From the NCBI RefSeq assembly GCF_002056295.1, contig NZ_CP020100.1:1821501-1885500 (forward strand): a stretch of 64,000 bases of DNA. Direction: 5' to 3'. Both the position numbers and the translations under genes were made by a program. Positions 16,289 to 58,146 of the stretch are shown piece by piece. The notes under the pieces are model-generated. The model ran no database searches, was not told the DNA's origin, and worked only from the letters and a program-made list of their open reading frames with translations. The stretch is from Halopseudomonas phragmitis. Lineage in GTDB: Bacteria > Pseudomonadota > Gammaproteobacteria > Pseudomonadales > Pseudomonadaceae. The number at the start of each line of letters is the position of its first letter. The first letter of the stretch is position 1.

Positions 16289-16401
16289 TGACCGTACACT
16301 TTCCTGAAGATTGGCGGCATGCTAGGTGGCGGGGCTGTTGGTGTCAAGGAAACCCACCACCGCTGCGGGATGCGGCCTGACGGGCTGGGTGCTGTTTGGG
16401 C

Positions 16402-16430
16402 TTGCGCAGGCGTTGCTCTTTGCGTAGAAT
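16402..16430 (+). promoter_or_regulatory. Predicted sigma-70 promoter of rplU-rpmA
   Basis: TTGCGC and TAGAAT are separated by 17 bases. The predicted start leaves a leader of about 135 bases before rplU, long enough for autogenous control, though I see no specific known leader structure. Confidence 0.6.
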
Positions 16431-16573
16431 CCACGCCCTCGAAAACCCGATTCACAGCATCCCTGTTTTGACAATGGCAAGCTCGGGCCCGATAGGCGGG
16501 TTCACTTGCAGCCATGCCGGCCACTAACCATTATTCCCAAGCGCCGGGTGAGCAGGATTACGGAGAAAGCAAC

Positions 16574-16885
16574 ATGTACGCAGTGATTGTTACCGGTGGC
16601 AAGCAGTACAAAGTCGCCGAAGGCGAATACCTGAAGGTCGAGAAGCTGGAAGCCGAAACCGGCGCCAGCATCGAGTTCGACCGCGTTCTGCTGGTTGGCA
16701 ATGGTGACGACGTCAAGATCGGTGCCCCGGTTGTCGAAGGCGCCAAAGTGACTGCCGAAGTGACCGAGCATGGTCGTGGCGACAAAGTGCGGATCATCAA
16801 GTTCCGTCGTCGTAAGCACCACATGAAGCGTCAGGGCCACCGTCAGTGGTACACCGAGATCAAGATTACTGGCATCTCTGCCTAA
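16574..16885 (+). CDS. rplU: 50S ribosomal protein L21
   Basis: A 103-residue protein starting [20 protein letters not shown], with the L21 signature [20 protein letters not shown] near the C-terminus. It binds 23S rRNA in the large subunit. The ATG at 16574 has GGAG 8 bases upstream; the longer open frame from 16514 has no such support. rpmA follows 21 bp later, and the two share a terminator. Confidence 0.98.
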
Positions 16886-16906
16886 GCGATTGAGGAGTTA
16901 ATACTC

Positions 16907-17164
16907 ATGGCACACAAAAAAGCAGGCGGTTCCACGCGTAACGGCCGCGATTCAGAATCCAAACGACTTGGCGTCAAGCTGTACGGCGGCCAGGCTGCTA
17001 CTGCCGGCAACATCATCGTTCGTCAGCGTGGCACTGAGTTCCACCCCGGCAAGAACGTTGGCATGGGCAAGGATCACACTCTGTTCGCCAAGGCTGACGG
17101 CGTGATCAAGTTCGAAGTGAAGGGCAAGTTCGGTCGTCGTTACGTTAATGTCGTAACCGCCTGA
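16907..17164 (+). CDS. rpmA: 50S ribosomal protein L27
   Basis: An 85-residue protein with the conserved start [20 protein letters not shown] and the GVKLYGGQ and [20 protein letters not shown] segments. The N-terminal tail reaches the peptidyl transferase centre. GAGGAG lies 8 bases before the ATG. It is cotranscribed with rplU and ends at a strong terminator. Confidence 0.98.
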
Positions 17165-17178
17165 TCGGCTCTGAACTG

Positions 17179-17209
17179 AAAAAGCCCTGTCGTAAGACGG
17201 GGCTTTTTT
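17179..17209 (+). terminator. Intrinsic terminator of rplU-rpmA
   Basis: AAAAAGCCCTGTC-GTAA-GACGGGGCTTTTTT: a GC-rich stem with a four-base loop, flanked by A and T runs. It separates rpmA from obgE. Confidence 0.92.
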
Positions 17210-17259
17210 GTTTGTTTTGTTCGTGTTGTTTGTGGCTTATTCTTTCCATGTGTTTATAA

Positions 17260-18495
<1,236 letters not shown>

Positions 18496-45407: not shown

Positions 45408-46288
45408 TAGTAGGTGTCGGCAACCTCGTGACTGCTGGTTTTGGGCTGGCGGCGTTGCTGCCAGCCGATTAGCAACAGTGGTACGACGATCATCAGACTG
45501 CCGGTGAAGAACCACAGATCCGGCACTTCGGCAAACCACCACCAGCCGATCAGCACCGCCCAGATCAGTCCGGTGTATTCGGCGCTGGTGATCTGGTTGG
45601 CATCCACCTGCCGATAGGCCAGCAGTACGCAGACGTTGTAGCCGAGGATGAACACCGATGAGCCTACTGCGCTGAGCAGCACAGCGTTGCTCCAGGGCGC
45701 GCCTTCCCAGAGCATCAGCAGCAGACACACTGGGGTGATCATCAGGTAGTTGAGAAACAGCTTGTGTACGGTGGACTGCCGGGCTGGCAGCTTGCGTACC
45801 AATACTGCATTGATCGCCAGAGCGGCGGCTGAGCCCAGCGCCGCCAGTGCCGCCCAACTGATGTCGACCGGGCGCAGGATTACCAGAATGCCGGCAAACC
45901 CGCCGAACACCGCCAGCAGACTCCAGCGGGTCAGGCGCTCGCCAAAAAATACCGCCGAGAGAATCATCACCAGAATCGGTGCGACGTAGAACACCGCGTT
46001 GGCCGTGGCCAGCGGCAGGCTGACTAGCGCCACTACCATGCAAACAATGCCGACCAGATGCACATGGCCGCGAATGGCGTGCAAGACTCCGCCCTCGAAG
46101 AAGTGCCCGGTATCGATCTGACGCCAGAACGGCAGCAACAGGGCCAGGGTGATCAAGCAGCGCATGAACGCGTACTGAAACACCGCCGAATCACCTTCAA
46201 GCAGCTTGATGAATACATCCGAAATCAACGCCAGGGCATTGCCGATGACCAGCAATAAGATGGCGCTGTTGACGGTCTTGCCGGACAT
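45386..46288 (-). CDS. EamA-family (DMT superfamily) transporter
   Basis: A 300-residue inner-membrane protein with about ten membrane helices in two EamA repeats: VNSAILLLVIGNALALISDV begins the first, and the second covers about residues 150-285 (AALAALGSAAALAINAVLVR; TSAEYTGLIWAVLIGWWWF). DMT proteins export or import amino acids and other metabolites; the substrate here is unknown. The ATG at 46288 has AGGAG 8 bases upstream. Directly beyond the ribosome binding site is the heptamer tract at 46299-46333. It ends 22 bp inside the PBP gene and is divergent from the LysR gene. Confidence 0.88.
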   Translation of the reverse strand: MSGKTVNSAILLLVIGNALALISDVFIKLLEGDSAVFQYAFMRCLITLALLLPFWRQIDTGHFFEGGVLHAIRGHVHLVGIVCMVVALVSLPLATANAVFYVAPILVMILSAVFFGERLTRWSLLAVFGGFAGILVILRPVDISWAALAALGSAAALAINAVLVRKLPARQSTVHKLFLNYLMITPVCLLLMLWEGAPWSNAVLLSAVGSSVFILGYNVCVLLAYRQVDANQITSAEYTGLIWAVLIGWWWFAEVPDLWFFTGSLMIVVPLLLIGWQQRRQPKTSSHEVADTYYHGAKAE

Positions 46289-46298
46289 GGGAGCTCCT

Positions 46299-46333
46299 GG
46301 GTTTGGGGTTTGGGGTTTGGGGTTTGGGGTTTT
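46299..46333. repeat. Heptanucleotide tandem repeat (TTTGGGG)4
   Basis: Four exact TTTGGGG units are flanked by GGG and TTTT. On the EamA transcript they read as CCCCAAA repeats ending a few bases before the AGGAG ribosome binding site. The plus strand could form a G-quadruplex. Confidence 0.85.
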
Positions 46334-46412
46334 CCTGGGAGCCTGGAGCATCTGCTCCAGGTAGGTGCTGCATGGTAGTTCGCTGCGGGAGCGGATGCTC
46401 CCGCCTCCCAGG
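46334..46412 (+). repeat. Two-hairpin REP element, copy D
   Basis: It has hairpins CCTGGAGCATCTGCTCCAGG and CGGGAGCGGATGCTCCCG, directly next to the heptamer tract, between the divergent EamA and LysR genes. Confidence 0.85.
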
Positions 46413-46509
46413 CAGGGGTCGCAGGCTAGCTATTTATCGCCGCCAGTGTAGCGATCCGCATTTATCCGATAAAATGATCTTTGTTGCGCATCTATTAGAA
46501 AATTGGATA

Positions 46510-47454
46510 ATGAAGCTTCCACCCCTAAAAGCTCTGCCGGTCTTCGAGGCTGTTGCCCGGCTCAACAGTTTTTCCCAGGCTGCCGAGGAACTGGCGGTCA
46601 GTCAGAGTGCGGTCAGCCACCAGATCAAGCAGCTCGAGCACTACCTCGGCGAGCAGTTGTTTCTGCGCACCGGGCGCTACCTCAGTCTGACCGAGGAGGG
46701 GCGCCAGTACTATGAGGCGGTCAGCGGTGCCTTGCGGCAGATCGAGCAGGCCAGCGAACAGTTGCTGGGGCAGGAGACCATGGCGTTGCGGCTGTCGGTG
46801 TTCAGTTCCTTCGCCGTGCGCTGGCTGGTGCCGCGCTTGCCGGCTCTGCACCGGGAGTTGCCACAATTGGAATTGGCGCTGGACATGAGCGGCGGGCATC
46901 CGCGCCTGTCTGACCGGGTAGCTGACTGCTTCATCACTGTGCGTACCGATGTGCCGGCCTACAGTTACGAGTTGATCTACACCGAACAACTGTTCCCGGT
47001 CTGTAGCCAGCAATATTGGCAGACGCTGTGCCGCGAGCTGGGACTGGACCCGGCGCTGGGTGTGCACCAGCCGGAGCTGGCGCCGCAGCGCCTGGCGGCC
47101 TATCCGCTGTTGTCGACCCACAGCATCTACAACCGTGCCGGTGGTGACTGGATCCACTGGTACGCCGTTGCCGGCCAGAGCTTGCCATCTGGCGCAAGGC
47201 TGCAGCATTTCAGCCATATGCTGCTGGCGTTGGAGGCGGCGCGCTTTCACCAGGGCATTGCCTTGACCAATGACTACATGCTCAGCAACCGGGCCGATTC
47301 GGCCGATTTTGTGCGTTTGCCCTGCCATGCCCTGACTACCGGCGACCAGTTTTATTTCGCCTGGAAAACCAGCCGCCGCAATGAGCCGGGGTTGCGTCTG
47401 CTGCGTGGTTGGCTGGTGGAGCAGGCCATTGAGTCGGGATTGTTGGGACGGTAG
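46510..47454 (+). CDS. LysR-family transcriptional regulator (GcvA-like)
   Basis: A 314-residue protein with an N-terminal winged HTH (FSQAAEELAVSQSAVSHQIK, about residues 22-41) and the GcvA-type opening MKLPPLKALPVFEAVARLNS. The C-terminal effector domain begins near residue 95 (LSVFSSFAVRWLVPRLPALH). The ATG at 46510 gives the normal length; the frame stays open about 70 codons upstream through the REP element, which is a shadow. It is upstream of the catabolic gene set at 47780-55424 and divergent from the EamA gene, so either could be its target. Confidence 0.92.
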   Translation: MKLPPLKALPVFEAVARLNSFSQAAEELAVSQSAVSHQIKQLEHYLGEQLFLRTGRYLSLTEEGRQYYEAVSGALRQIEQASEQLLGQETMALRLSVFSSFAVRWLVPRLPALHRELPQLELALDMSGGHPRLSDRVADCFITVRTDVPAYSYELIYTEQLFPVCSQQYWQTLCRELGLDPALGVHQPELAPQRLAAYPLLSTHSIYNRAGGDWIHWYAVAGQSLPSGARLQHFSHMLLALEAARFHQGIALTNDYMLSNRADSADFVRLPCHALTTGDQFYFAWKTSRRNEPGLRLLRGWLVEQAIESGLLGR

Positions 47455-47779
47455 AGGTGGGTTGGGTGATTCCCGGGAGGCGGGAGCATCCGCTCCCGCG
47501 GCGAACTGTCGTGCAGCACCTACCTGGAGCAGATGCTCCAGGCTCCCGGGAAAACCCAAAGCCCAGGAAACTCTCGGGCAGCAAATTATTACCCCATATG
47601 TCCATCGTCTCGTTGCGCCCAAACCCTCGTGCTCTGCCTTTTTCAGCACTCATGGCCCTGGGCCACAGCACTATTGTGCCGGTACCACGAAAGCCGACCG
47701 CGGTTTGCGTACCGCGCCCCTGGGTCCTACCCTGACCCTGTCAGCTTGATCGACAACGGGCAAACACACGAGGAGGCTT
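47455..47779. other. Gap between LysR gene and semialdehyde dehydrogenase gene
   Basis: These 325 bp hold REP copy E (47473-47550). The remaining 200 bases should carry the promoter of the catabolic genes. No strong promoter or LysR-type T-N11-A palindrome stands out. Confidence 0.5.
47473..47550 (-). repeat. Two-hairpin REP element, copy E (reverse orientation)
   Basis: The order of hairpins is reversed: CGGGAGCATCCGCTCCCG comes first, then CCTGGAGCAGATGCTCCAGG, bounded by CCGGGAGG and CTCCCGGG. Confidence 0.85.
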
Positions 47780-49240
47780 ATGTCACTCTCCCGGTTGAGT
47801 TCGCTACGTTTGTTTCGCCAGCAGTGCCATGTCGGCGGTACTTGGGTAGACGCAGAAGACGGCAGCACCATCGAGGTCGATAATCCCGCCAGCGGCGAGG
47901 TGTTCGGTCGCATTCCTTCCCTCACGGCGGCGCAGGTCGAGGCCGCGATCGATACCGCGCAATCCGCTTTCATCGACTGGCGTGCGCGTACCGCGCAGCA
48001 GCGTGCCGATATGTTGCTGCGCTGGCACGATCTGGTGCTGGCAAACCGTGAGGACATCGCCATTCTGATGACCCTGGAGCAGGGCAAGCCATTGGCCGAG
48101 GCGCAGGGCGAGGTGGATTATGCCGCGTCTTTCCTGCGCTGGTTTGCCGAGGAAGCGCGGCGGGTCTATGGCGAGACCATTCCCGGCGCCAAGCCGGGCC
48201 AGCAGATCGTCGTGCTGCGCCAGCCGGTCGGGGTCACATCGGCCATTACGCCGTGGAATTTCCCGGCTGCGATGATTACCCGCAAGGCCGGCGCTGCCCT
48301 GGCGGCGGGTTGCAGCATGATCGTCAAGCCGGCCGAGGCTACCCCCTATACGGCGCTGGCGCTGGCTGTACTGGCCGAGGAGGCCGGGTTGCCGCCTGGG
48401 GTGTTCAATGTCATCACTGGCGAGGCCAAACTGATTGGCCAGGTACTGACCGCCAGTCCGGTGGTGCGCAAGCTCAGTTTTACTGGCTCGACAGCGGTTG
48501 GCCGGCAGTTGATGGCGCAATGTGCCGAGCATATCCAGAAGGTCTCGCTGGAGCTGGGTGGCAATGCGCCGTTCATTGTGTTCGAAGATGCCGACCTGGA
48601 CCGTGCCGTTGAAGGCGCCATGGCCAGCAAGTTCCGCAATACCGGCCAGACCTGCGTCTGCGCCAACCGTTTCCTGGTGCAGCGCAGCGTGCACGAGGCG
48701 TTTGTCGACAAGCTGGCGGCGGCCATGGCCAAGCTGCGGCTGGGTAACGGCTTTGAGCCGGGTGTAACCCAGGCGCCGCTGATCAACCAGGCGGCGGTGC
48801 GCAAGGTGCAGCAGCATTACCGTGATGCGCTGGACAAGGGCGCACGGCACGTCAGTGGTGCAGTACCGGATGGCGGGCAGGGCAACTTCGTCGAGCCGGT
48901 GCTGATCACCGAGGTGAACCCGAGCATGCAGCTGTGTCACGAAGAAACCTTTGGCCCGCTGGCGGCAGTGATGCCGTTCGACACCGAGCAGCAGGCCATC
49001 GAATTGGCCAATGCCACGCCCTACGGGTTGGCGGCCTATTTCTATAGCCGTGACGTTCACCGCTGCTGGCGCGTTGCCGAGGCGCTTGAGGCCGGCATTG
49101 TTGGCGTCAATGAAGGCGCGATCTCCAATCCGGCGGCGCCCTTTGGCGGCGTCAAGGCTTCGGGCCTGGGGCGTGAGGGTTCGCGTCACGGGCTGGAGGA
49201 ATACACCGAACTCAAGTACCTGTGCATGGGGGCGGGCTGA
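47780..49240 (+). CDS. NAD(P)-dependent succinate-semialdehyde dehydrogenase-like enzyme (GabD family)
   Basis: A 486-residue aldehyde dehydrogenase. TPWNFPAAMITRKAGAALAA is the cofactor-binding region, SFTGSTAVGRQL the Rossmann turn, VSLELGGNAPFIVFEDADLD carries the general base Glu, and NTGQTCVCANRF the catalytic Cys (about residue 288). The overall pattern fits GabD, which oxidises succinate semialdehyde to succinate, but related enzymes act on glutarate semialdehyde and others. GAGGAGG precedes the ATG. Its stop overlaps the next gene by one base. Confidence 0.9.
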   Translation: MSLSRLSSLRLFRQQCHVGGTWVDAEDGSTIEVDNPASGEVFGRIPSLTAAQVEAAIDTAQSAFIDWRARTAQQRADMLLRWHDLVLANREDIAILMTLEQGKPLAEAQGEVDYAASFLRWFAEEARRVYGETIPGAKPGQQIVVLRQPVGVTSAITPWNFPAAMITRKAGAALAAGCSMIVKPAEATPYTALALAVLAEEAGLPPGVFNVITGEAKLIGQVLTASPVVRKLSFTGSTAVGRQLMAQCAEHIQKVSLELGGNAPFIVFEDADLDRAVEGAMASKFRNTGQTCVCANRFLVQRSVHEAFVDKLAAAMAKLRLGNGFEPGVTQAPLINQAAVRKVQQHYRDALDKGARHVSGAVPDGGQGNFVEPVLITEVNPSMQLCHEETFGPLAAVMPFDTEQQAIELANATPYGLAAYFYSRDVHRCWRVAEALEAGIVGVNEGAISNPAAPFGGVKASGLGREGSRHGLEEYTELKYLCMGAG

Positions 49241-50370
49241 TGGCCGAGCTGCCGCGCAAGCGTATTGCTCTGATGCCGGGGGATGGCATCGGGGTCGAGG
49301 TCATGCAGGCCACCGAGCAGGTGCTCACTGTTCTGCGCGAACGCGAGGCTCTGGCGCTCGACTGGCAACGCCTGGACTGGCCAAGTACCGCCTGGCACCA
49401 AATGCACGGACGCATGATGCCGGACGATGCGCTGGATCAGGTACGCGCCTTCGATGTGCTGCTGCTCGGCGCGCTGGGTGACCCCGGTCCGCTCAGTGAC
49501 GCAGGACGTTACCGGCTGCCGGACGGGGTATCACTGGAGCCGCTGCTGCGTTTTCGCAAGGGTCTGGATCTGTGGGCCTGCGAGCGCCCGGCCCGGCTGC
49601 TGCCCGGGGCGCCACGTTACCTGGCCGATCCGCGTGCGGCCGAAGTCGATATGCTGGTGATCCGTGAAAACAGCGAAGGTGAGTATGTCGGTCAGGGTGG
49701 GAGACTGCATCCGGGCACGCCGCATGAGGTGGCCACGCAGCTTGAGGTCTTTACCCGCGCCGCGACCGAACGGCTGATCCGGCATGCCTTCTCACGCGCC
49801 CGTCAGCGTCTGGCCCAGCGCGGGGAGAGCCGGCGTTTCCAGTGTGCCGACAAGGGCGAGGCTCACGCGCAGGTTTGCCTGATCACCAAGCGTAATGCTC
49901 AGCCGGCCTGGGGTGAGCTGTATAGCGAAGTGTTCGCCGAGGTGGCGTTGGAGTTTCCCGAGATTGGTATCCATCACGAACTGGTCGATGCCGCCTGTAT
50001 GAAATTCGTGCAATGCCCGTGGCAGTTTGATGTGGTGGTCGCCAGCAACCTGCATGGCGACATTCTCACCGATCTGGCGGCGGTGCTGTCTGGCGGTCTG
50101 GGGTTGGCGCCCTCGTGCAATATCAATCCGGCCCGCCGCGATACCCCGGCTTTGTTTGAACCGACCCACGGCAGCGCTCCGGACATTGCCGGTCAGGGTC
50201 TGGCTAATCCGGCGGCGATGCTGTTGACCACGGCGATGCTGCTCGAGTGGTTGGGTTTTGTGGCCGCTGCCGAGCGCCTGCGCGTGGCCGTTGCGCGTGA
50301 CCTGCTCAGTGCGTCAGGGCAGTCACGCAGCTGCGCGGCTGTTACCGCTGGGGTGATCGCCCAACTTTAG
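49240..50370 (+). CDS. Isocitrate/isopropylmalate dehydrogenase family, tartrate/D-malate dehydrogenase-like
   Basis: A 376-residue beta-decarboxylating dehydrogenase. IALMPGDGIGVEVM is the N-terminal motif, LVIRENSEGEYVGQGGRLHP followed by GTPHEVATQLEVFTRAATER fits the tartrate/D-malate branch better than LeuB, and SNLHGDILTDLAAVLSGGLG with EPTHGSAPDIAGQGLANPAA is the metal and NAD region. The substrate is probably a 2-hydroxy acid such as D-malate or tartrate, but that is inference. The ATG at 49240 shares its A with the upstream stop (TGATG). Confidence 0.85.
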   Translation: MAELPRKRIALMPGDGIGVEVMQATEQVLTVLREREALALDWQRLDWPSTAWHQMHGRMMPDDALDQVRAFDVLLLGALGDPGPLSDAGRYRLPDGVSLEPLLRFRKGLDLWACERPARLLPGAPRYLADPRAAEVDMLVIRENSEGEYVGQGGRLHPGTPHEVATQLEVFTRAATERLIRHAFSRARQRLAQRGESRRFQCADKGEAHAQVCLITKRNAQPAWGELYSEVFAEVALEFPEIGIHHELVDAACMKFVQCPWQFDVVVASNLHGDILTDLAAVLSGGLGLAPSCNINPARRDTPALFEPTHGSAPDIAGQGLANPAAMLLTTAMLLEWLGFVAAAERLRVAVARDLLSASGQSRSCAAVTAGVIAQL

Positions 50371-50450
50371 GAGCGCTCTGCGAGCGCGAACAGCAGTACT
50401 GCAAATTGAATACGCGGCCGCAGGCCGCCACACTGCAACAGGAGTCAGTC

Positions 50451-51704
50451 ATGAGTCATCTGTCGCCGCTGCTGAAACAAGCCACCCAGGTCTGCGCCGA
50501 ACGCGGTCAGGGGAGCTGGCTGTATGACGTCAACGGCAAGGCCTATCTGGATTTTACCTCGGGCATTGGTGTGACCTCGACCGGCCATTGTCATCCGACC
50601 GTGGTTGAGGCCGCCCGCGCCCAGGTCGGCAAGGTCATTCATGCTCAGTACACCACGGTAACTCACCCGCCGATGCTTGAGCTGACCGACCGCCTGGTGG
50701 AGAAAATGCCCGCTGAGATTGACGCGGTGGCGTTCAGCAATTCCGGCTCTGAGGCGGTGGAAATGGCCCTGCGTCTGGCGCGTCAGGCCACTGGCCGAGC
50801 CAACGTGATTGTTTTCAACGGCGGCTTTCATGGTCGCACCATGGCTGCTGCCTCGCTAACCACTTCGGGCACCAAGGTGCGCAGCGGCTTTCACCCAATG
50901 ATGGCTGGGGTGGTGGTGGCGCCGTTTCCGCATGCCTGGCGCTATGGCTGGAGCGAGCAGGAAGCCACCGAGTTCTGCCTGCGCGAGCTGGATCATATCT
51001 TCAAGACCCAGTCGGCGCCTGATGACACCGCGGCCATGCTGATCGAGCCGGTACAGGGCGAGTACGGCTACTACCCGGCCAACACGGCCTTCATGCAGGG
51101 GCTTGCTGAGCGCTGCCGTCAGCACGGCATCTTGCTGATCTGCGATGAAATTCAGGCTGGCTATGGGCGCACCGGCAAATTCTGGAGCCACCAGCACTTC
51201 GCCGTGCAGCCGGATATCGTGATTACCGCCAAGGGGCTGGCCAGCGGGTTTCCGCTGTCGGCCATCGCTGCGTCCGAAGCGCTGATGCGCCGTGGCGCAC
51301 CCGGCTCGCAGGGCGGCACTTACGGCGCTAATGCGGTGGCCTGCGCGGCGGCCCTGGCAACGCTGGAGGTGATCGAACACGAGCAGTTGGTCGATAACGC
51401 CGCTCAGCGCGGGCAGCAGTTGCTGGAACAATTGCAGGCGCTACAGCGCCAGCATCCGCTGATCGCCACCATCCGTGGCAAGGGCCTGATGCTGGGGATG
51501 GAGATAGCTGAAAGCCGCCTCCAGCCGCGTGCCGATATCGCCGCCCGGCTCACCGCCGCCTGCGAGCAGCAGGGGCTGTTGCTGCTGCGCTGTGGCATCG
51601 ACGGCCAGATTGTGCGCTGGTTGCCGCCGCTGGTGGTCAGCGAGGCCGACATCAATGAGGGTGTGGCGCGCTTTGAACGCGCCTTGCAGGAGATCGCGGC
51701 ATGA
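50451..51704 (+). CDS. Class III (omega-amino acid) aminotransferase, GabT-like
   Basis: A 417-residue PLP enzyme. The class III pattern is clear: FSNSGSEAVEMALRLARQAT, VFNGGFHGRTMAAASLTTSG, LLICDEIQAGYGRTGKFWSH and the PLP lysine in VITAKGLASGFPLSA (about residue 263). It would move an amino group from an omega-amino acid (4-aminobutyrate or similar) to 2-oxoglutarate, giving a semialdehyde for the dehydrogenase at 47780. The ATG at 50451 has AGGAG 7 bases upstream. It overlaps the next gene by ATGA. Confidence 0.88.
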   Translation: MSHLSPLLKQATQVCAERGQGSWLYDVNGKAYLDFTSGIGVTSTGHCHPTVVEAARAQVGKVIHAQYTTVTHPPMLELTDRLVEKMPAEIDAVAFSNSGSEAVEMALRLARQATGRANVIVFNGGFHGRTMAAASLTTSGTKVRSGFHPMMAGVVVAPFPHAWRYGWSEQEATEFCLRELDHIFKTQSAPDDTAAMLIEPVQGEYGYYPANTAFMQGLAERCRQHGILLICDEIQAGYGRTGKFWSHQHFAVQPDIVITAKGLASGFPLSAIAASEALMRRGAPGSQGGTYGANAVACAAALATLEVIEHEQLVDNAAQRGQQLLEQLQALQRQHPLIATIRGKGLMLGMEIAESRLQPRADIAARLTAACEQQGLLLLRCGIDGQIVRWLPPLVVSEADINEGVARFERALQEIAA

Positions 51705-52645
51705 CCGATGTACTGCTGTTAATGGCCCCTGAAGACACCGAGTTGCCTGGTCTGGATGGTTTGCCGGCAAGCGTGCGGCTGCGCTGCGTGCAGGATGAGG
51801 ACGCCTTGCGCCAGGCCTTGCCCGAGGCGGAGGTGCTGGTAGTGACGGACTTTCGTTCTGGCCTGCTTGAGCGCTGCTGGCCAGCCCAAAATCGCCTGCG
51901 CTGGGTGCATGCCACCAGTGCCGGGGTCGATGCACTGATGTTCCCGGCGCTTTGGGATAGTCCTGTCACCATCACCAATGCGCGCGGGCTGTTTGATCGG
52001 GGCATTGCCGAGTATGTACTCGGCGCGGTGCTGATGTTCGCCAAGGACACTCTCGGCAATCTGCGGTTGCAGCGGCATCGTCAGTGGCAACACCGCGATA
52101 CCGAATTGATCGAGCAGCGCCGGGTGCTGGTGGTCGGCGCCGGTTCGATTGGTGGTGAGGTGGCCACGCTGCTGCGCGCCGTGGGCATGCAGGTGGTCGG
52201 CCTGGCGCGCACGGCGCGCGCCGATGCGCGCTTTGATGCGGTGCATGCCAGTGCGGCGTTGCCTGAGCAGTTGGCGCTGGCCGATTTCGTGGTCATCACC
52301 GCGCCGCTGACCGACGACACCCGCGGCCTGTTCAACGACCAGGCGTTTGCCGCGATGAAGCCCGGCGCGCGGCTGATCAATGTTGGCCGTGGGTCGATTG
52401 TCGATACCGCCGCGCTGTTGCGTGCGCTGGAGCGGGGGCAGCTAAGCGGCGCCGCGCTGGATGTCTTCGAGCAGGAACCGTTGCCCGAGGATCACCCGCT
52501 GTGGCAGCAACCCAACGTGATGATCTCTGCCCATATGGCCGGTGACTTTCTCGGCTGGCGCCGGGCGTTGGGCGAGCAGTTCGTTACCAACTTCCTGCGC
52601 TGGCAGGCCGGGGAGGCACTGCATAACCGGGTGGAGCGGGGGTAA
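51701..52645 (+). CDS. D-isomer specific 2-hydroxyacid dehydrogenase
   Basis: A 314-residue NAD(P)-dependent enzyme of the GhrA/phosphoglycerate dehydrogenase family. The Rossmann motif is VLVVGAGSIGGEVATLLRAV (about residue 142), followed by KPGARLINVGRGSIVDTAAL with the conserved Arg, and LDVFEQEPLPEDHPLW with the Glu of the active site. The expected His sits in MISAHMAGDF. It reduces a 2-oxo acid or oxidises a D-2-hydroxy acid; the substrate is unknown. It overlaps the aminotransferase gene by ATGA. Confidence 0.88.
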   Translation: MTDVLLLMAPEDTELPGLDGLPASVRLRCVQDEDALRQALPEAEVLVVTDFRSGLLERCWPAQNRLRWVHATSAGVDALMFPALWDSPVTITNARGLFDRGIAEYVLGAVLMFAKDTLGNLRLQRHRQWQHRDTELIEQRRVLVVGAGSIGGEVATLLRAVGMQVVGLARTARADARFDAVHASAALPEQLALADFVVITAPLTDDTRGLFNDQAFAAMKPGARLINVGRGSIVDTAALLRALERGQLSGAALDVFEQEPLPEDHPLWQQPNVMISAHMAGDFLGWRRALGEQFVTNFLRWQAGEALHNRVERG

Positions 52646-52658
52646 ACCTTGGGGTGTT

Positions 52659-52738
52659 CCTGGGTGCCTCGAGCATTTGCTCGAGCTAGGTGGTGCACGG
52701 AGGTTCGCTGCGGGAGCAGATGCTCCCGCCCCCCGGGA
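52659..52738 (+). repeat. Two-hairpin REP element, copy F
   Basis: The first stem is CCTCGAGCATTTGCTCGAG, the second CGGGAGCAGATGCTCCCG. The middle pair of the first stem changed on both sides (G:C to C:G) compared with copy A, which keeps the hairpin. Confidence 0.82.
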
Positions 52739-52795
52739 GCGTTGCCTGGCGTTTGTTTGTCGTTATGACCTCTTGAACCAACACAGGAGAAGCCC

Positions 52796-54205
52796 ATGTC
52801 CCACGAGATTCTCGCCCTGACCGCCGTCGAGTTGTTGCAGCACTATCGTGACAAACGCCTGTCGCCGGTTGAGGTGGCGACGGCCATGCTCGATCAGATC
52901 GAGCGCGTGGACGATCATACCAACGGCTTCTGTCTGGTCGATCGTGACACCAGCCTTGGGTTGGCGCGCGAGGCCGAGCAGCGTTACCTGCACGGTGAGG
53001 CACAGGGGCTGCTCGACGGCGTGCCGGTGGCGGTAAAGGATGTGTTTCTCACTCCCATGTGGCCGACGCTGCGAGGCTCGCGCACGGTTGATCCGGCCAC
53101 GACGCTGAACAAGTCGGCACCCACCACGGCCGCGCTGGCGCGCCATGGCTATGTACCGATCGGCAAGACCACCACGCCGGAGCTGGGCTGGAAAGGGGTA
53201 ACCGACAACCCCATCGACGGTGTCACCAACAACCCCTGGAACCCGGAGCGCACCGCTGGTGGTTCCAGTGGTGGCAGTGCGGTGGCGGTGGCGCTGGGGA
53301 TGGCGCCGCTGGCGCTGGGTACCGATGCCGGTGGGTCGATCCGCATTCCGGCTGCGTTTTGCGGAATTGTCGGGCTCAAGCCGTCGTTCGGTGAAGTGCC
53401 GCACTGGCCGGCCAGCCCCTTTGGCACGCTGGCGCATGCCGGGCCGATGACCTGGACGGTCGAGGACTGCGCGCTGATGATGAATGTGCTGACCGAGGCC
53501 GATCATCGTGATACCCACGCCATTCCCCGGCGTGGCATCGATTATCTGGCGGAACTCAAGGGCGGGGTGCGCGGGCTGAAAATTGCCTACAGCCCGAACC
53601 TTGGTTATGTCGATGTCGATCCCGAGGTGGAGGCTGCTGTGGCTGAGGCGGTTAAGGTGTTCGAGCAACTGGGTGCCGAGGTGGTGCGCGTCGATCCCGG
53701 TTTCAGTGATCCGTTGGCCGCTTTCGGGCATCTGTTCTATGGCGGCGCGGCCAATGCCATGCGTGATCTGGGGCCGAAGAAGCGTGAGCTGATGGACCCG
53801 GCGTTGGTCAGCGTGGCCGAGCGCGCCGCCAAGCTCAGCATGCTTGACTACATGGGGGCGGTGAACGAGTCGATGGCGCTGCGCGAACGCATGGCCAACT
53901 TCCATCAGAAGTACGATCTGCTGCTGACACCGACGCTGCCGATCACCGCCTTCAAGACCGGGCGGGAAGTACCCGAGGACTGGCCGCACACCCGCTGGCC
54001 GACCTGGACCCCGTTTACTTACCCATTCAACATGACCGGCCAGCCGGGCCTGTCGGTGCCCTGCGGGTTCGACAACCAGGGTTTGCCGATTGGCCTGCAA
54101 CTGGTCGGCGCACGCTTCAATGATGCCCTGGTGCTGCGCGCCGGGCATGCCTACCAGCAGGCCGCGCCGCTGACCGCGCGACGACCGCCGCTATTTCACT
54201 CCTGA
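52796..54205 (+). CDS. Amidase (amidase signature family)
   Basis: A 469-residue amidase signature enzyme with the full Ser-cisSer-Lys triad: Lys81 in PVAVKDVFLT, Ser157 in TAGGSSGGSAVAVALG and Ser181 in LGTDAGGSIRIPAAF. It hydrolyses a C-N amide bond; these enzymes range from acylamide to lactam-derived substrates, so the substrate is open. A GGAG lies 8 bases before the ATG. It lies 13 bp before an aminotransferase gene, so the two are probably cotranscribed. Confidence 0.9.
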   Translation: MSHEILALTAVELLQHYRDKRLSPVEVATAMLDQIERVDDHTNGFCLVDRDTSLGLAREAEQRYLHGEAQGLLDGVPVAVKDVFLTPMWPTLRGSRTVDPATTLNKSAPTTAALARHGYVPIGKTTTPELGWKGVTDNPIDGVTNNPWNPERTAGGSSGGSAVAVALGMAPLALGTDAGGSIRIPAAFCGIVGLKPSFGEVPHWPASPFGTLAHAGPMTWTVEDCALMMNVLTEADHRDTHAIPRRGIDYLAELKGGVRGLKIAYSPNLGYVDVDPEVEAAVAEAVKVFEQLGAEVVRVDPGFSDPLAAFGHLFYGGAANAMRDLGPKKRELMDPALVSVAERAAKLSMLDYMGAVNESMALRERMANFHQKYDLLLTPTLPITAFKTGREVPEDWPHTRWPTWTPFTYPFNMTGQPGLSVPCGFDNQGLPIGLQLVGARFNDALVLRAGHAYQQAAPLTARRPPLFHS

Positions 54206-54218
54206 TCCGGAGGTGCCC

Positions 54219-55424
54219 ATGCCGCTGAGCAACATGGATATCGAGATGTACGAATCCGAGGATCCGATCTGGAATCCGGCGCTGCGCACTATGCCGATTC
54301 CCGGGATCCGCAAGATGGTCAATCTGGCTGCCAGCCTGCCGGATGTGATTCACCTGTCGATCGGTCAGCCGGATTTGCCGGCGCCGGATACGGTGATTAA
54401 TGCCGCCGTCGAGGCGTTCCAGGCCGGGCAGACCGGCTATACCATGGATGCCGGCCTGCCGGAGCTGCTCGAATCACTGGCGCTGTACTACGGTGAGCGC
54501 TACCAGCGGCCGCTGACGGCGGACAATATCCTGGTCACCACCGGCGCCACAGAAGCGGTGTACCTGGCGTTGACTTCGGTGTCTGCGCCGGGGCGGCACT
54601 TCATTGTGCCGGACCCGGCATTTATGCTCTATGCACCGTTGATCCGCATGAACGGTGGCGAGGTGACCGAAGTCCCGACCCGCGCCGAGCACAACCACCA
54701 GCTCGATCCGCAGGAAGTGCTCGATGCCATCCAGCCCAACACCTATGCGATCGTGCTCAACTCACCAAGCAACCCGACCGGCACCCTGTACCCGAAGGAA
54801 ACTCTGGAGGCGATCCTGCAGGAGGCGGCCTACCGCGATATCCATGTGATCAGCGACGAGGTTTACGATCACCTGATCTACGACGGCAAGACCTATCCTT
54901 CGGTCTTGGCCAGTTGCAGCGACCTGGACAACGTCATGGTCATCAGCAGTTTTTCCAAGACCTACAGCATGGCTGGGTTGCGTATTGGCTGGCTGATCGC
55001 CAGCCAGGCGGCTATCAAGAAGTTGCGGCGCTACCATATGTTCACTACTACCGTGGCCAATACTCCGTGCCAGTGGGCCGGAGTGGCGGCGTTGCATCAC
55101 GGTCGGGAGTTTATCGACGGCATGCTGGCCGAGTACACCCGCCGGCGTGACCGTATTGTCGAGCTGGTTGAGCAGACGCCATGGCTGACCGGCTACAAGC
55201 CTGAAGGTGCTTTTTACCTGTTCCCCTCGTTGCCAGATGGAGTCAACGGCACCAACGTGGCGCTGCGACTGCTTAAGGAAACTGGCGTGTGCACCATCCC
55301 CGGCGAAACCTTTGGCAATCACTGCAGCAACGCCCTGCGTCTCAGCTACTCGACCTCGCTGGACAAGATCGAACAGGCCTTTGAGCGGATTATTCCGTGG
55401 ATGGAGAAGCAGGATTTTGGTTGA
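54219..55424 (+). CDS. Class I/II PLP-dependent aminotransferase
   Basis: A 401-residue aspartate-aminotransferase-like protein. SIGQPDLPAPDTVINAAVEA is the N-terminal substrate region, VLNSPSNPTGTLYPKETLEA the NPTG motif, ISDEVYDHLIYDG the Asp-Tyr pair and SSFSKTYSMAGLRIGW the PLP lysine (about residue 247). Substrate unknown. The ATG at 54219 has GGAGG 5 bases upstream; the GTG two codons earlier is less likely. Confidence 0.88.
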   Translation: MPLSNMDIEMYESEDPIWNPALRTMPIPGIRKMVNLAASLPDVIHLSIGQPDLPAPDTVINAAVEAFQAGQTGYTMDAGLPELLESLALYYGERYQRPLTADNILVTTGATEAVYLALTSVSAPGRHFIVPDPAFMLYAPLIRMNGGEVTEVPTRAEHNHQLDPQEVLDAIQPNTYAIVLNSPSNPTGTLYPKETLEAILQEAAYRDIHVISDEVYDHLIYDGKTYPSVLASCSDLDNVMVISSFSKTYSMAGLRIGWLIASQAAIKKLRRYHMFTTTVANTPCQWAGVAALHHGREFIDGMLAEYTRRRDRIVELVEQTPWLTGYKPEGAFYLFPSLPDGVNGTNVALRLLKETGVCTIPGETFGNHCSNALRLSYSTSLDKIEQAFERIIPWMEKQDFG

Positions 55425-55686
55425 GGGGTGATGGAACTCTGGGCTTCCCCGGGGTTTTGGGTTTTCCTGGGAGCCTTGAGCATCTGCTCAAGGTAAGCAT
55501 TGCACGATAGTCCGCTGCGGGAGCGGATGCTCCCGCCTCCCAGGAAGGGCCGCAGAGTGGTTCGCGGGCGGTCCGAGGTGCACCCGCCTACCAGGAATCC
55601 AAGTGTAGCTTTGTGCGTTTTCGCACATCATTCCATCGGATAGCCTGCTACATTTCGCGCTCAACGACATAACAAGGACGTATGTC
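55425..55686. other. Gap before the RAYT gene
   Basis: REP copy G fills 55466-55544. The rest (to 55686) contains no recognisable gene and should include the promoter of the transposase gene. Confidence 0.5.
55466..55544 (+). repeat. Two-hairpin REP element, copy G (upstream of RAYT)
   Basis: The first stem is CCTTGAGCATCTGCTCAAGG and the second CGGGAGCGGATGCTCCCG. The first stem differs from copy A at a compensating pair (G:C to T:A). Confidence 0.87.
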
Positions 55687-56283
55687 ATGGTACTTACCCC
55701 GGATCACAAGGGCTGGTATCTCGTTGGGCGCTTGCCCCATTGCGATAATCCCGCTGTAGCCCAGTTCATCACCTTCCGTCTGGCGGATGCTTTGCCTGTC
55801 AAAACACAGCGCAGTCTGGAGCAGGAACTCAGGCTCTTGCCTGAAAATACGCGGGAACAGAAACGCCGACAGCGCATTGAGTTCTGGCTGGATCAGGGCT
55901 TGGGCTGTTGTGCTCTGCAACACGCACAGGTGGCCCAGGTTATGGCGGATGGGTTGATGCGTTGGCAGAACAGCCGCTACAGGTTGCTAGCCTGGTGCAT
56001 CATGCCCAATCACGTTCATGTACTGATCGAGCCGCATTACTCCCTGTCGCGGATCGTTCAGAGCTGGAAAGGCTTTACCGGTCGCTGGGTCATGTTGAAC
56101 AGCAAAACGCTGGGGTTGAGGTTGCCCTTGGGCAGGTTGTGGATGCCCGGGTACTGGGATCGTTTCATTCGTGATGAGCGGCATCATCTTGCTGTGGTGG
56201 ATTACATTCACAGCAACCCGGCCAAAGCCGGGTTATGTGCAGCGCCTGAGCATTGGCCGTGGTCTAGTGCCAGTAGGAGGTAA
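55687..56283 (+). CDS. REP-associated tyrosine transposase (RAYT), IS200-like
   Basis: A 198-residue Y1 HUH-type protein. The HUH motif is in CIMPNHVHVLIEPHYSL (about residue 108), the catalytic Tyr is expected in the helix YWDRFIRDERHHLAVVDYI, and YIHSNPAKAGLC is a typical RAYT ending. RAYT proteins bind and cut single-stranded REP hairpins and are thought to spread REP elements. It is flanked by REP copy G in forward orientation and copies H1-H3 in reverse orientation, as in known RAYT loci. Length matches the family. AAGGA lies about 10 bases before the ATG. Confidence 0.93.
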   Translation: MVLTPDHKGWYLVGRLPHCDNPAVAQFITFRLADALPVKTQRSLEQELRLLPENTREQKRRQRIEFWLDQGLGCCALQHAQVAQVMADGLMRWQNSRYRLLAWCIMPNHVHVLIEPHYSLSRIVQSWKGFTGRWVMLNSKTLGLRLPLGRLWMPGYWDRFIRDERHHLAVVDYIHSNPAKAGLCAAPEHWPWSSASRR

Positions 56284-56284
56284 G

Positions 56285-56363
56285 CCCGGGAGGCGGGAGT
56301 ATCTGCTGCCGTAGCGGACTATCGTGCAATGCTTACCTTGAGCAGATGCTCAAGGTTCCCAGG
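56285..56363 (-). repeat. Two-hairpin REP element, copy H1
   Basis: A reverse-orientation copy right after the RAYT stop. The GC-rich hairpin has a change (CGGGAGTATCTGCTGCCG) that weakens the stem; the second stem is CCTTGAGCAGATGCTCAAGG. Confidence 0.82.
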
Positions 56364-56370
56364 AGAAGCC

Positions 56371-56449
56371 CCTGGGAGGCGGGAGCATCTGCTCCCGCGG
56401 CGGGCTGCCGTGCAACGCTTACCTCGAGCAGATGCTCGAGGCTCCCAGG
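56371..56449 (-). repeat. Two-hairpin REP element, copy H2
   Basis: A reverse-orientation copy with stems CGGGAGCATCTGCTCCCG and CCTCGAGCAGATGCTCGAGG, 7 bases after H1. Confidence 0.86.
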
Positions 56450-56453
56450 AACG

Positions 56454-56484
56454 CCTACCTTGAGCAGATGCTCAAGGCTCCCAG
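56454..56484 (-). repeat. Half REP element, copy H3
   Basis: Only the outer hairpin is left (CCTTGAGCAGATGCTCAAGG followed by CTCCCAGG), 4 bases after H2. Confidence 0.8.
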
Positions 56485-56506
56485 GAGAACCCCGGGAAGC
56501 GTGCAA

Positions 56507-58135
56507 CTACAACAACATCGACCGGATATCCGCCAGCAGTTCGCCGAGGCGTTTGGTGAACTGGGCGGCGGCGGCGCCGTTGATGGCCCGGTGGTCGTAG
56601 GACAGCGACAGCGGCAGCATCAGCCGAGGCTGGAAGGCTTTGCCGTCCCAGACCGGTTGCATGGTGGCCTTGGATACGCCAAGGATGGCCACCTCCGGGC
56701 TGTTGACGATCGGCGTGAAGTAGGTGCCGCCGATGTGGCCCAGGCTGGAGATGGTGAAGCAGGCGCCTTGCATGGCGTCGGCACCGAGCTTCTTGTTGCG
56801 CGCCTTGTCGGCCAGTTCAGCTGCCTCGGCAGCCAGTTGCAACAGGCTCTTTTGGTCGACGTCACGAATCACCGGCACCAGCAGGCCATCCGGGGTGTCG
56901 ACGGCAAAGCCGATATGCACGTACTGCTTGTGTACCAGTTGCTTGCCATTGCCGGCCAGCGAGACGTTGAAGTTCGGCTGTTCGCGTAGCAGATGGGCAC
57001 AGGCCTTGAGTAGGAACGGCAGGACCGTGAGCTTGACGCCGGCTTTCTCGGCGACGGTTTTTTGCGCCTTGCGGAAGTCTTCCAGTTCGCTGATGTCGGC
57101 CTGATCGAACTGGGTCACGTGCGGTACGTTGAGCCAACTGCGGTGCAAGTTCATGGCGCCGACTTGTTGCAGACGGGTCATGTCTTTGATCTCGACCTCG
57201 CCAAACCGGCTGAAATCAACTTCCGGTACCGGCGGGATACCCATGCCGCCAGCGGCACCGGCCGGTGCGGCTTTGCGCTGTTGCATGACCTGTTTGACGA
57301 AGGCGTCGACATCTTCCTTGAGGATGCGCTCGCGCGGGCCGCTGGGCTTGACCTCAGTCAGCTCAACGCCGAGTTCGCGGGCCAGCTTGCGTACTGCCGG
57401 GCCGGCATGGACTTTCTGGCCGTCGCGGCTGGGGCCGCCAACCGGTGGCGGGCTCTGTGGCTCGCTGGGTGTGCTGGCCTTGGGCTGTGCGGCAGCTTCA
57501 GTTTCAACCGTGGCTGCGGGGCTGGCGGACTCGGCAGCCGGTGCCGGGCTGCCGGCCGCGCCTTCGGTCTTGATATGCATGATCAGGTCGCCGGTTTTGA
57601 CGTCCTGCTCGAGCTTTGCCTCGATTGATTCGATTACCCCGGCCACGGGCGAGGGGATCTCCATGCTGGCCTTGTCCGACTCCAGTACCAGCAGCGACTG
57701 GTCGACTTCGACGCTGTCGCCGCTGCTGACCAGAATCTCGATGATCTTGGCTTCGGTGCTGCCGATATCCGGAATCCGGATTGCCTCGATGCTGCTGGCG
57801 GCAGGTTGTGCCTGCTTTGGCTGCTCGGCTGCAGGTTGGGCTTTCGGCGCTTCGGCGGCTGGTTTTTGCTCTTGCTTGGCGGGTGCCGCTGCCTGGTCGG
57901 TAGCGCCTTCCACTTCCAGCTCCAGCAGAGCGTCACCTTCCTTCAGGGTGTCGCCCAGTTTGAACTTGAGACTCTTGATGACTCCGGCCTTGGGACTGGG
58001 GACTTCCATGCTGGCCTTGTCGGACTCCAGTACCAGCAGAGACTGTTCCGCCTCAACCCGGTCGCCTTCCTTGACCAGAATTTCAATGACTTCGCCTTCG
58101 CCGCCGATATCGGGCAACTTGATTACTTCACTCAT
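56507..58135 (-). CDS. aceF: Dihydrolipoyl acetyltransferase, E2 of pyruvate dehydrogenase
   Basis: A 542-residue E2 core with two lipoyl domains (lipoyl Lys40 and Lys155, both in the LLVLESDKASME motif), each followed by an Ala/Pro-rich linker, then a peripheral subunit-binding domain (VRKLARELGVELTEVKPSG, about 255-290) and the acetyltransferase domain. The catalytic His is in YDHRAINGAAAAQF; the usual second Asp is Asn here, as I recall also in Pseudomonas AceF. The start at 58135 has GAGGAG 7 bases upstream. It lies 11 bp after aceE. Confidence 0.96.
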   Translation of the reverse strand: MSEVIKLPDIGGEGEVIEILVKEGDRVEAEQSLLVLESDKASMEVPSPKAGVIKSLKFKLGDTLKEGDALLELEVEGATDQAAAPAKQEQKPAAEAPKAQPAAEQPKQAQPAASSIEAIRIPDIGSTEAKIIEILVSSGDSVEVDQSLLVLESDKASMEIPSPVAGVIESIEAKLEQDVKTGDLIMHIKTEGAAGSPAPAAESASPAATVETEAAAQPKASTPSEPQSPPPVGGPSRDGQKVHAGPAVRKLARELGVELTEVKPSGPRERILKEDVDAFVKQVMQQRKAAPAGAAGGMGIPPVPEVDFSRFGEVEIKDMTRLQQVGAMNLHRSWLNVPHVTQFDQADISELEDFRKAQKTVAEKAGVKLTVLPFLLKACAHLLREQPNFNVSLAGNGKQLVHKQYVHIGFAVDTPDGLLVPVIRDVDQKSLLQLAAEAAELADKARNKKLGADAMQGACFTISSLGHIGGTYFTPIVNSPEVAILGVSKATMQPVWDGKAFQPRLMLPLSLSYDHRAINGAAAAQFTKRLGELLADIRSMLL

Positions 58136-58146
58136 AATGTCGCTCC

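Follow-up and report, generated by a model that had tools for sequence, protein, structure and literature searches.

On the DoeABCD route for ectoine and diaminobutyrate, a C4 diamino acid is deacylated and transaminated and the semialdehyde is oxidised. The L-carnitine operon of Acinetobacter baumannii comprises the LysR-type gene carR and the genes for a D-malate dehydrogenase, a transporter, CntA, CntB and a malic semialdehyde dehydrogenase (MSA-DH) (PMC11353897, PMC9162365). The formation of D-malate by an SSDH-family enzyme and its conversion to pyruvate by a TDH-family enzyme have both been shown for relatives of the enzymes treated here (PMC11353897). In a window of 64,000 nucleotides from Halopseudomonas phragmitis, whose genus is presumably close to Pseudomonas, six enzyme genes, all open and all on the plus strand, occupy positions 47780–55424. 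They and the neighbouring elements are as follows:

45386–46351, minus strand: EamA gene, on the strand opposite to the six-gene set
ATG at 46510, same strand as SSDH: LysR gene, GcvA-like, 325 bases upstream of SSDH
47702–47733, plus strand: putative promoter-like element 5′ of SSDH, GGTTTGC..CCTACCCT
47780–49240, plus strand: SSDH, C4 semialdehyde dehydrogenase of the GabD/malic-semialdehyde-dehydrogenase subfamily
49222–50370, plus strand: TDH, beta-decarboxylating dehydrogenase, proposed D-malate (or 2-hydroxy-C4-diacid) dehydrogenase
50406–51704, plus strand: AT3, omega-aminotransferase (class III), GabT-like, of its own subfamily
51701–52645, plus strand: HADH, NAD(P)-dependent D-2-hydroxyacid dehydrogenase
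52659–52739, no strand: REP-type bipartite inverted element in the HADH–AMI gap, an 81-nt repeat
52796–54205, plus strand: AMI, amidase-signature hydrolase
54213–55424, plus strand: AT1, class I/II aminotransferase, PRK06108-like, proposed alpha-transaminase

The SSDH–TDH tail of this set matches the pair formed by MSA-DH and D-malate dehydrogenase in A. baumannii, which ends with D-malate going to pyruvate, and the catalytic and carboxylate-binding residues of the two semialdehyde dehydrogenases are identical. In contrast to the carnitine operon, the window set would remove nitrogen by aminotransferases and an amidase, contains an additional D-2-hydroxyacid dehydrogenase, and has Pro rather than Glu at SSDH position 451. 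A TDH belonging to a carnitine-type module is understood here as one that converts D-malate and not L-malate, L- or meso-tartrate or isocitrate. Carnitine itself was ruled out as substrate because the cluster has no monooxygenase: neither CntA nor CntB was found among the nine proteins scanned (45386–56280; the flanking penicillin-binding-like and pyruvate-dehydrogenase genes were judged by eye).

With the gabD–gabT pair of the GABA shunt, the window set shares the families of SSDH and AT3, but the genome has a gabD-like and gabT-like pair of its own elsewhere (G000:C1:1292413-1295103), AT3 lies below the GABA-transaminase cut-off, and the window set has four more enzymes. The kinds of reaction of the DoeABCD route also recur, whereas the D-hydroxyacid and D-malate-type dehydrogenases are additions. 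Since no close DoeA was found in the genome with a Mesorhizobium protein annotated as DoeA as the query (best match 29% over query residues 145–309, E = 5.5e-10), Doe-type ectoine degradation was rejected. The p5 operon of Rhizobium binae encodes an M24 peptidase, a D-2-hydroxyacid dehydrogenase, a gamma-glutamyl-GABA hydrolase, a class-III aminotransferase, SSDH, a tartrate dehydrogenase and an Asp/Glu racemase. It groups the four core kinds of enzyme in a single run, along with an amide hydrolase, but its hydrolase is annotated in another family, its aminotransferase is of another subfamily (31%), and it has transporter and GntR genes; we know of no characterisation of it. A keyword search found no description of the six-gene cluster in the open literature covered, nor did literature searches on DUF3830 and 3-hydroxy-4-aminobutyrate.

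Enzyme families and position 451 of SSDH

Comparison with family models and aligned relatives directly yields the assignments to enzyme families, the residues of catalysis and carboxylate binding, and the change in the SSDH loop. SSDH scores 693.2 bits against TIGR01780 (the succinate-semialdehyde dehydrogenase subfamily), above the cut-off of 646.35, and 719.2 bits against NF008415 (the NADP-dependent GabD equivalog), below the cut-off of 828; among solved structures, GabD is closest to SSDH and GabT to AT3. Alignment to A. baumannii MSA-DH (8S33) places the catalytic Cys292 and Glu258 as well as the carboxylate binders Arg168, Arg286 and Ser449. Residue 451, in a loop two residues from Ser449, is Pro where Glu is usual, and A. 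baumannii MSA-DH has Glu at this position, as GabD does. All 32 rows whose locus also contains HADH and AMI, both actinobacteria among them, have Pro or Ala (31 of these rows are distinct; the window is included, and its row was set by hand). Glu is found in 15 of the 21 remaining rows. Among the six others, L033 and L081 belong to the same family, in loci truncated at contig ends, L159 (Rhodococcus RHA1) has a related AT3 nearby, L097 looks misaligned, and L110 and L039 are true exceptions. With Pro or Ala at 451, the enzyme may take a semialdehyde that is different close to the carboxyl group, as expected of one with a substituent at position 2. Much of the agreement at this position is shared ancestry.

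TDH has domain PF00180; its best NCBIfam model is TIGR02089 (tartrate dehydrogenase; 310.6 bits, below the cut-off of 470.4) and its nearest solved relative the tartrate dehydrogenase 3flk. Orthologues within the genus are at 75–94%, and the alignment covered 12 of 16 loci, with L015, L018, L019 and L021 omitted for a stop in the reported frame. We propose that TDH acts as a D-malate (or 2-hydroxy-C4-diacid) dehydrogenase. AT3 (PF00202) scores 373.4 bits against TIGR00700, the GABA transaminase equivalog (cut-off 506.65), and compares at 39% with the GabT-like protein of its own genome and at 59–61% with its actinobacterial relatives; its Arg144, Glu219 and Arg404 occupy the positions of the GabT substrate residues, with presumably the same roles. 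HADH (PF02826/PF00389) has the motifs GRG, DVFEQEP and SAH, and AMI (PF01425; 679.5 bits against NF004815/PRK06169, above the cut-off of 506) carries the Lys and Ser-Ser motifs. AT1 (PF00155) has its active-site Lys motif in place, and Thr replaces the Lys of the GAKQA motif of T. maritima AspAT; on the presumed role of that Lys, a neutral side chain of the substrate is plausible. All six genes are under purifying selection (Ka/Ks 0.013–0.122 against the sister genome G018).

Conservation of the six-gene set

The six genes form a conserved unit. AMI and AT1, the best conserved pair, occur in the same 25 of 37 genus genomes and adjoin each other in every one; in the remaining 12, no orthologue of HADH, AT1 or TDH passed the limits set for the search. 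All six genes follow a single order in 17 of the 25 (across two contigs in the case of G017), and the same order is found in 7/7 genomes of family f43 and in the one genome of f16. The flanking genes differ between loci of this order (their names, such as suhB, secF, TRAP, CaiB and HAD, were mostly assigned by eye). Five genus genomes keep five genes and lack AT3, with none elsewhere in them at E 1e-100; since SSDH is kept, it may work there with another omega-transaminase. AMI and AT1 alone are retained in G007, and G008 has AT3–HADH–AMI–AT1 without SSDH and TDH.

Marinobacter-like genomes hold part of the set, in a different arrangement. Because two pairs of rows proved to be the same contig (L198 and L079 in G055, L077 and L069 in G048), there are seven distinct Marinobacter-like neighbourhoods, and 31 distinct rows among the 32 of SSDH; for family f20, the neighbourhoods of 4 of 9 genomes were examined. 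TDH (7), AT1 (7) and HADH (6) stay together in the seven, which ties AT1 and HADH to TDH, while neither SSDH nor AMI was found near TDH in any of them, and AMI is absent from 9/9 Marinobacter-like genomes at E 1e-60. Six of the seven have, ahead of TDH, a LysR gene that adjoins an acyl-CoA-dehydrogenase-like gene, so in these genomes TDH may be linked to another function through a regulator.

Five of the six genes were also found at loci of two actinobacteria, with AT1 missing within the 21 kb examined. These and the rhizobial loci came from the best 80 of 595 TDH relatives and from plasmid searches, and therefore give no rate. The actinobacterial loci also hold two racemase-like genes and a DUF3830 protein. 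A link from these to maleate isomerase or hydantoin was dropped, as no such gene was seen by eye in relatives from the same taxonomic order as the window.

The initial annotation had listed six enzymes of these families in one direction, which the open frames, the strand and the family models bear out. It had also held that they belong together and had called for a look at their co-occurrence; one order in three families and near-block presence or absence in the genus agree with this, the Marinobacter-like genomes only in part. The LysR gene it had placed ahead of the set is indeed there, on the same strand, but is not a conserved partner, and the EamA exporter it had counted as the nearby transporter does not belong: this LysR and EamA are conserved beside the set in 1 of 24 genus neighbourhoods, and both were dropped as members. 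No transporter was seen to recur next to the set across families.

A proposed route to D-malate and its alternatives

With a probability of roughly 0.35, we propose that the set is a self-contained catabolic operon whose substrate is an alpha-amino acid of four carbons that carries a further nitrogen on C4. An L-amino acid would be taken through a D-2-hydroxy acid and D-malate to pyruvate, with an SSDH subfamily that the exchange of Glu451 for Pro/Ala has adapted to a C4 semialdehyde substituted at position 2; this would be an undescribed pathway, spread over several families of one order and with an actinobacterial counterpart. The likeliest substrate is 2,4-diaminobutyrate, free or N-acylated. 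AMI would convert an amide to the free amino acid, AT1 would remove the alpha-amino group to give a 2-oxo acid, and HADH would reduce this to the D-2-hydroxy acid, 4-amino-2-hydroxybutyrate. AT3 would then remove the 4-amino group to give 2-hydroxy-4-oxobutanoate, which SSDH may oxidise to D-malate and TDH may oxidise and decarboxylate to pyruvate and CO2. HADH would thus supply the 2-hydroxyl that TDH uses, and AT1 probably acts before AT3. The stereochemistry of a D-specific hydroxyacid dehydrogenase fits that of a D-malate-type dehydrogenase. AMI is not needed by the chain unless the substrate arrives as an amide.

A hydroxylated C4 acid, in line with the hydroxylated compound among the candidates of the initial annotation, is likely, because the SSDH–TDH pair is the known module from malic semialdehyde through D-malate to pyruvate. 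Instead of that annotation's sequence from amide via amino acid and semialdehyde to acid, with a branch off it, we propose a chain that runs from the hydroxyacid dehydrogenase into TDH. Ectoine synthase is present in 37/37 genus genomes, so diaminobutyrate is presumably available; with AMI in 25, the set does not correlate with that supply. Against the diaminobutyrate route stand the actinobacterial sets without AT1, the Marinobacter-like genomes without AMI and the partial sets of G007 and G008. Family models alone would name these genes generic GabD, GabT, tartrate dehydrogenase and amidase. If the proposal is true, such names mislead for the whole orthologous set, the single residue 451 could aid re-annotation of genomes, and the place of D-malate in bacterial nitrogen catabolism extends beyond the breakdown of carnitine and tartrate.

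A different chain would start from asparagine (or another omega-amide), with AT1 giving 2-oxosuccinamate, HADH D-2-hydroxysuccinamate, AMI D-malate and TDH pyruvate, while AT3 and SSDH act on a parallel omega-amino acid. The constant adjacency of AMI and AT1 and the Thr of AT1 speak for it, and PMC5485471 describes the L-form sequence from 2-oxosuccinamate through 2-hydroxysuccinamate to malate by omega-amidase in mammals and cites the L-form sequence from 2-oxosuccinamate to malate in plants. We regard this chain as doubtful, as it leaves SSDH and AT3 unexplained although SSDH stays in the five genomes without AT3, and as Marinobacter-like genomes hold AT1, HADH and TDH without AMI. To our knowledge, moreover, the known omega-amidases are of the nitrilase type. 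It is about equally doubtful that the genes are a nitrogen-salvage row with separate jobs (a GABA-like acid, an amide, an amino acid, a hydroxy acid), joined for expression only and forming no linear pathway. The subsets that stand alone in G007, G008 and the genomes without AT3, and the lack of a visible dedicated transporter, fit such a row, but block presence or absence across the 37 genomes, one order in three families and the related actinobacterial set do not.

Somewhat harder to accept is 3-hydroxy-4-aminobutyrate or a similar 3-hydroxy omega-amino acid, which AMI would free and AT3 turn into malic semialdehyde as in carnitine breakdown, with SSDH and TDH finishing and AT1 and HADH handling by-products. 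The malic semialdehyde module and the GABA-type residues of AT3 (in their presumed roles) agree with this. However, SSDH differs at 451 from MSA-DH, and AT1 and HADH, the companions of TDH in Marinobacter, are reduced to accessories. An ordinary gabD–gabT pair beside unrelated neighbours is very improbable: the solved structures nearest to SSDH and AT3 favour it, but the separate pair elsewhere, the distance of AT3 from that GabT and from the equivalog model, and the conservation of six genes together all weigh against it. Pantothenate breakdown (amidase, beta-alanine aminotransferase, dimethylmalate dehydrogenase) also has a low probability, for nothing at the locus favours dimethylmalate over malate, and no genes for it were found in the open literature covered.

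Transcription and repeat elements

The six genes are tightly spaced (−19, 35, −4, 150 and 7 bases from SSDH through AT1; the SSDH and TDH frames overlap by 19 bases), with the exception of the HADH–AMI gap, and probably share one transcript. Transcription may nevertheless be split at this gap and at the LysR–SSDH gap, because each holds a REP-type inverted element of about 81 bases, the second at 47472–47552. A search for a shared regulator site by 8-mers in 30 upstream regions of SSDH returned mostly ribosome-binding words. The promoter-like pattern, composed by eye after this search from the same sequences in which it was counted, precedes SSDH in 10 of 22 genus sequences and in 0 of 8 from the other two families; its 9 matches in 844160 bases (both strands, 25 genus loci) equal the number of upstream ones there. 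The 81-nt REP-type element has six copies within 44000–58200.

Conservation of the six-gene set

The initial annotation had described six enzyme genes in one direction, and these were borne out on the + strand (47780-55424) in the order C4 semialdehyde dehydrogenase (SSDH, GabD-like), tartrate/D-malate-dehydrogenase-like enzyme (TDH), class-III omega-aminotransferase (AT3), D-2-hydroxyacid dehydrogenase (HADH), amidase (AMI) and class I/II aminotransferase (AT1), with successive intergenic gaps of -19, 35, -4, 150 and 7 bases. SSDH, AT3, HADH, AMI and AT1 all show the expected motifs, and TDH has the invariant RENxEGEY, K223, D and N residues in common with 11 relatives. Between the window and the sister genome G018, Ka/Ks is 0.013 to 0.122 for all six genes. 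All six enzymes belong to known families; no description of the gene assembly, its six-gene conservation or the SSDH variant was found in the searchable literature. The window genome also holds a second aldehyde dehydrogenase and class-III aminotransferase pair (G000:C1:523986-526656), 61% and 32% identical to SSDH and AT3, respectively.

The six genes are a unit. AMI (E 1e-100) and AT1 (E 1e-150) are found in the same 25 of the 37 genomes of the genus, HADH (E 1e-60) in 23 and TDH (E 1e-120) in 22; at these thresholds HADH, AT1 and TDH were found in 0/12 of the AMI-less genomes. In the window genome and 16 others of the 25 AMI-bearing genomes the set is complete, with order and direction unchanged; G017 is counted as a full set though it is split over two contigs. 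AT3 alone is missing from the set in five genomes (G020, G043, G047, G048 and G049), and a genome search (E 1e-100) found it nowhere else in them. The set of G008 is without SSDH and TDH, that of G015 is interrupted by a contig end, and G007 retains AMI-AT1 alone. Locus L039 of G007 (C7:278000-295000) holds a group of other SSDH, class-III aminotransferase and TDH genes next to what look by eye like TRAP transporter genes; these enzyme types may have been assembled there independently.

Across the order, a TDH orthologue (E 1e-120) is present in 18 of 244 genomes, namely the window's own, nine Marinobacter-like (family f20), seven of family f43 and one of family f16, and in none of nine listed genomes from other genera of the window's family. 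Co-occurrence in other genomes, to which the initial annotation had looked, was found with the same gene order in the genus, in 7/7 f43 genomes and in the one f16 genome (neighbourhoods compared). The flanking genes differ: those on either side of the set in 6/7 f43 loci look by eye like suhB and secF; those in the window are a LysR gene on one side and a transposase-like gene, then aceF, on the other. In the seven distinct Marinobacter-like neighbourhoods (L078, L079, L080, L082, L205, L206 and L207), TDH (7), AT1 (7), HADH (6) and AT3 (3) are close together but rearranged, with neither SSDH nor AMI near TDH/AT1. AMI was found in 0/9 f20 genomes (E 1e-60), and AT3 in none of G055, G182 and G226 (E 1e-100).

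The semialdehyde dehydrogenase and residue 451

In A. baumannii, an SSDH-family enzyme converts malic semialdehyde to D-malate, and a TDH-family enzyme, which does not act on L-malate, L-/meso-tartrate or isocitrate, converts D-malate to pyruvate (PMC11353897); PMC9162365 and PMC6514802 describe the same cluster. The window SSDH aligns without gaps over 482 residues to the solved A. baumannii malic semialdehyde dehydrogenase (8S33) and retains Arg168, Arg286, Ser449, Cys292 and Glu258; its substrate is therefore probably a C4 semialdehyde whose carboxylate is free. The cofactor residue Asn184 of 8S33 corresponds to Glu186 in the window and to Glu, Asn, Ser or Ala in other full sets, so that cofactor use may vary among sets.

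Pro or Ala occupies position 451, two residues beyond the carboxylate-binding Ser449, in 32/32 SSDH rows with HADH and AMI in the locus (31 distinct, the window and both actinobacteria included). Among 21 further rows of the SSDH family, the residue is Glu (15), Ala (3), Pro (2) or Thr (1); Glu also stands here in all three SSDH paralogues encoded by the window genome and in all five solved enzymes of the alignment, including 8S33. The Pro/Ala agreement mostly reflects shared ancestry within the order, the actinobacterial rows being more independent. From this position we infer a substrate that would be altered close to its carboxyl end, which would fit a C4 semialdehyde bearing a 2-hydroxy or 2-amino group.

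Distant relatives and the proposed pathway

Named genomes were scanned once with the TDH alignment, and the best 80 of 595 matches were used. Among these, Saccharomonospora piscinae and Allokutzneria sp. have AT3 (59-60% identity), SSDH (48-49%), TDH (43-45%), HADH (52-53%) and AMI (48-50%) within ~14 kb; no AT1 match was found at the two loci. Rhizobium binae p5 (L173:478-14730) carries an annotated run of HADH, gamma-glutamyl-GABA hydrolase, class-III aminotransferase, SSDH and tartrate dehydrogenase, and Arthrobacter StoSoilB13 has GntR-SSDH-AT3, with TDH-HADH 7.5 kb on. Thus, omega-aminotransferase, C4 semialdehyde dehydrogenase, TDH and D-2-hydroxyacid dehydrogenase recur together, and the amide-cleaving or amine-oxidising partners vary.

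In the proposed pathway, AMI would free 2,4-diaminobutyrate from an amide, and AT1, HADH, AT3, SSDH and TDH, acting in that order, would convert it to pyruvate with consistent D stereochemistry. In Marinobacter-like genomes, which have lost AMI and often also AT3 and have no SSDH nearby, AT1 and HADH are still found together with TDH, suggesting HADH as the source of the 2-hydroxyl that TDH would later oxidise. The main rival is an asparagine route, in which AT1, HADH, AMI and TDH would act in turn via D-2-hydroxysuccinamate; the L-form of this route has been published for mammals and, by citation, for plants (PMC5485471). G007 with AMI-AT1 alone, G008 without SSDH-TDH and the actinobacterial loci without AT1 count against the asparagine route and the diaminobutyrate chain alike.

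The actinobacterial loci also encode a DUF3830 protein, of which no mention was found in the open literature searched, and two adjacent arylmalonate-decarboxylase (Amdase)/Asp-Glu-racemase family proteins (L123 proteins were scanned, those of L150 assigned by likeness):
L123:6562-7059 and 15666-17979, DUF3830 and two racemase-family genes
L150:4346-5895 and 6652-7164, the same

A GntR regulator is present at L123, and the R. binae run also holds annotated racemase and ABC transporter genes. Another grouping seen repeatedly, at rhizobial, burkholderial and arthrobacter loci and at one locus from the same order (L099, L103, L105, L141, L157 and L038), has TDH together with a HAD-family hydrolase and an FAD oxidoreductase; it also includes one or more of HADH, class-III aminotransferase, SSDH and a peptide ABC transporter.

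Regulators, flanking genes and repeats

Features around the set in the window are:
47702-47733, promoter-like element upstream of SSDH (pattern drawn up by eye)
46334-46414, 47472-47552, 52659-52739, 55466-55546 and 56285-56451, six REP-type bipartite inverted repeats of ~81 bases
55687-56283, REP-associated tyrosine transposase gene (NF047646 above cut-off)

The LysR regulator and EamA exporter, which the initial annotation had placed next to the set, did not hold up as parts of it, matches lying near it in 1/24 genus relatives (G018), a count that includes some incomplete neighbourhoods. A different LysR gene, adjoining an acyl-CoA-dehydrogenase-like gene, precedes TDH in 6/7 Marinobacter-like loci. 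In the loci inspected by eye, no transporter gene accompanies the set from family to family. The promoter-like pattern is found upstream of SSDH in 10/22 genus sequences, from which it was itself derived, and in 0/8 from other families; in some members of the genus, therefore, a dedicated promoter may serve the set.

Downstream of AT1, on the opposite strand, a CaiB/BaiF-family CoA-transferase gene (by eye) lies in 13/24 genus neighbourhoods (L026, L027, L028, L030, L031, L035, L036, L068, L070 and L073-L076), and not beside the window's set. Copies of the REP-type repeats are located inside the six-gene set and between LysR and SSDH, with more genome-wide; the repeats around the tyrosine transposase gene are a REPIN-RAYT system.
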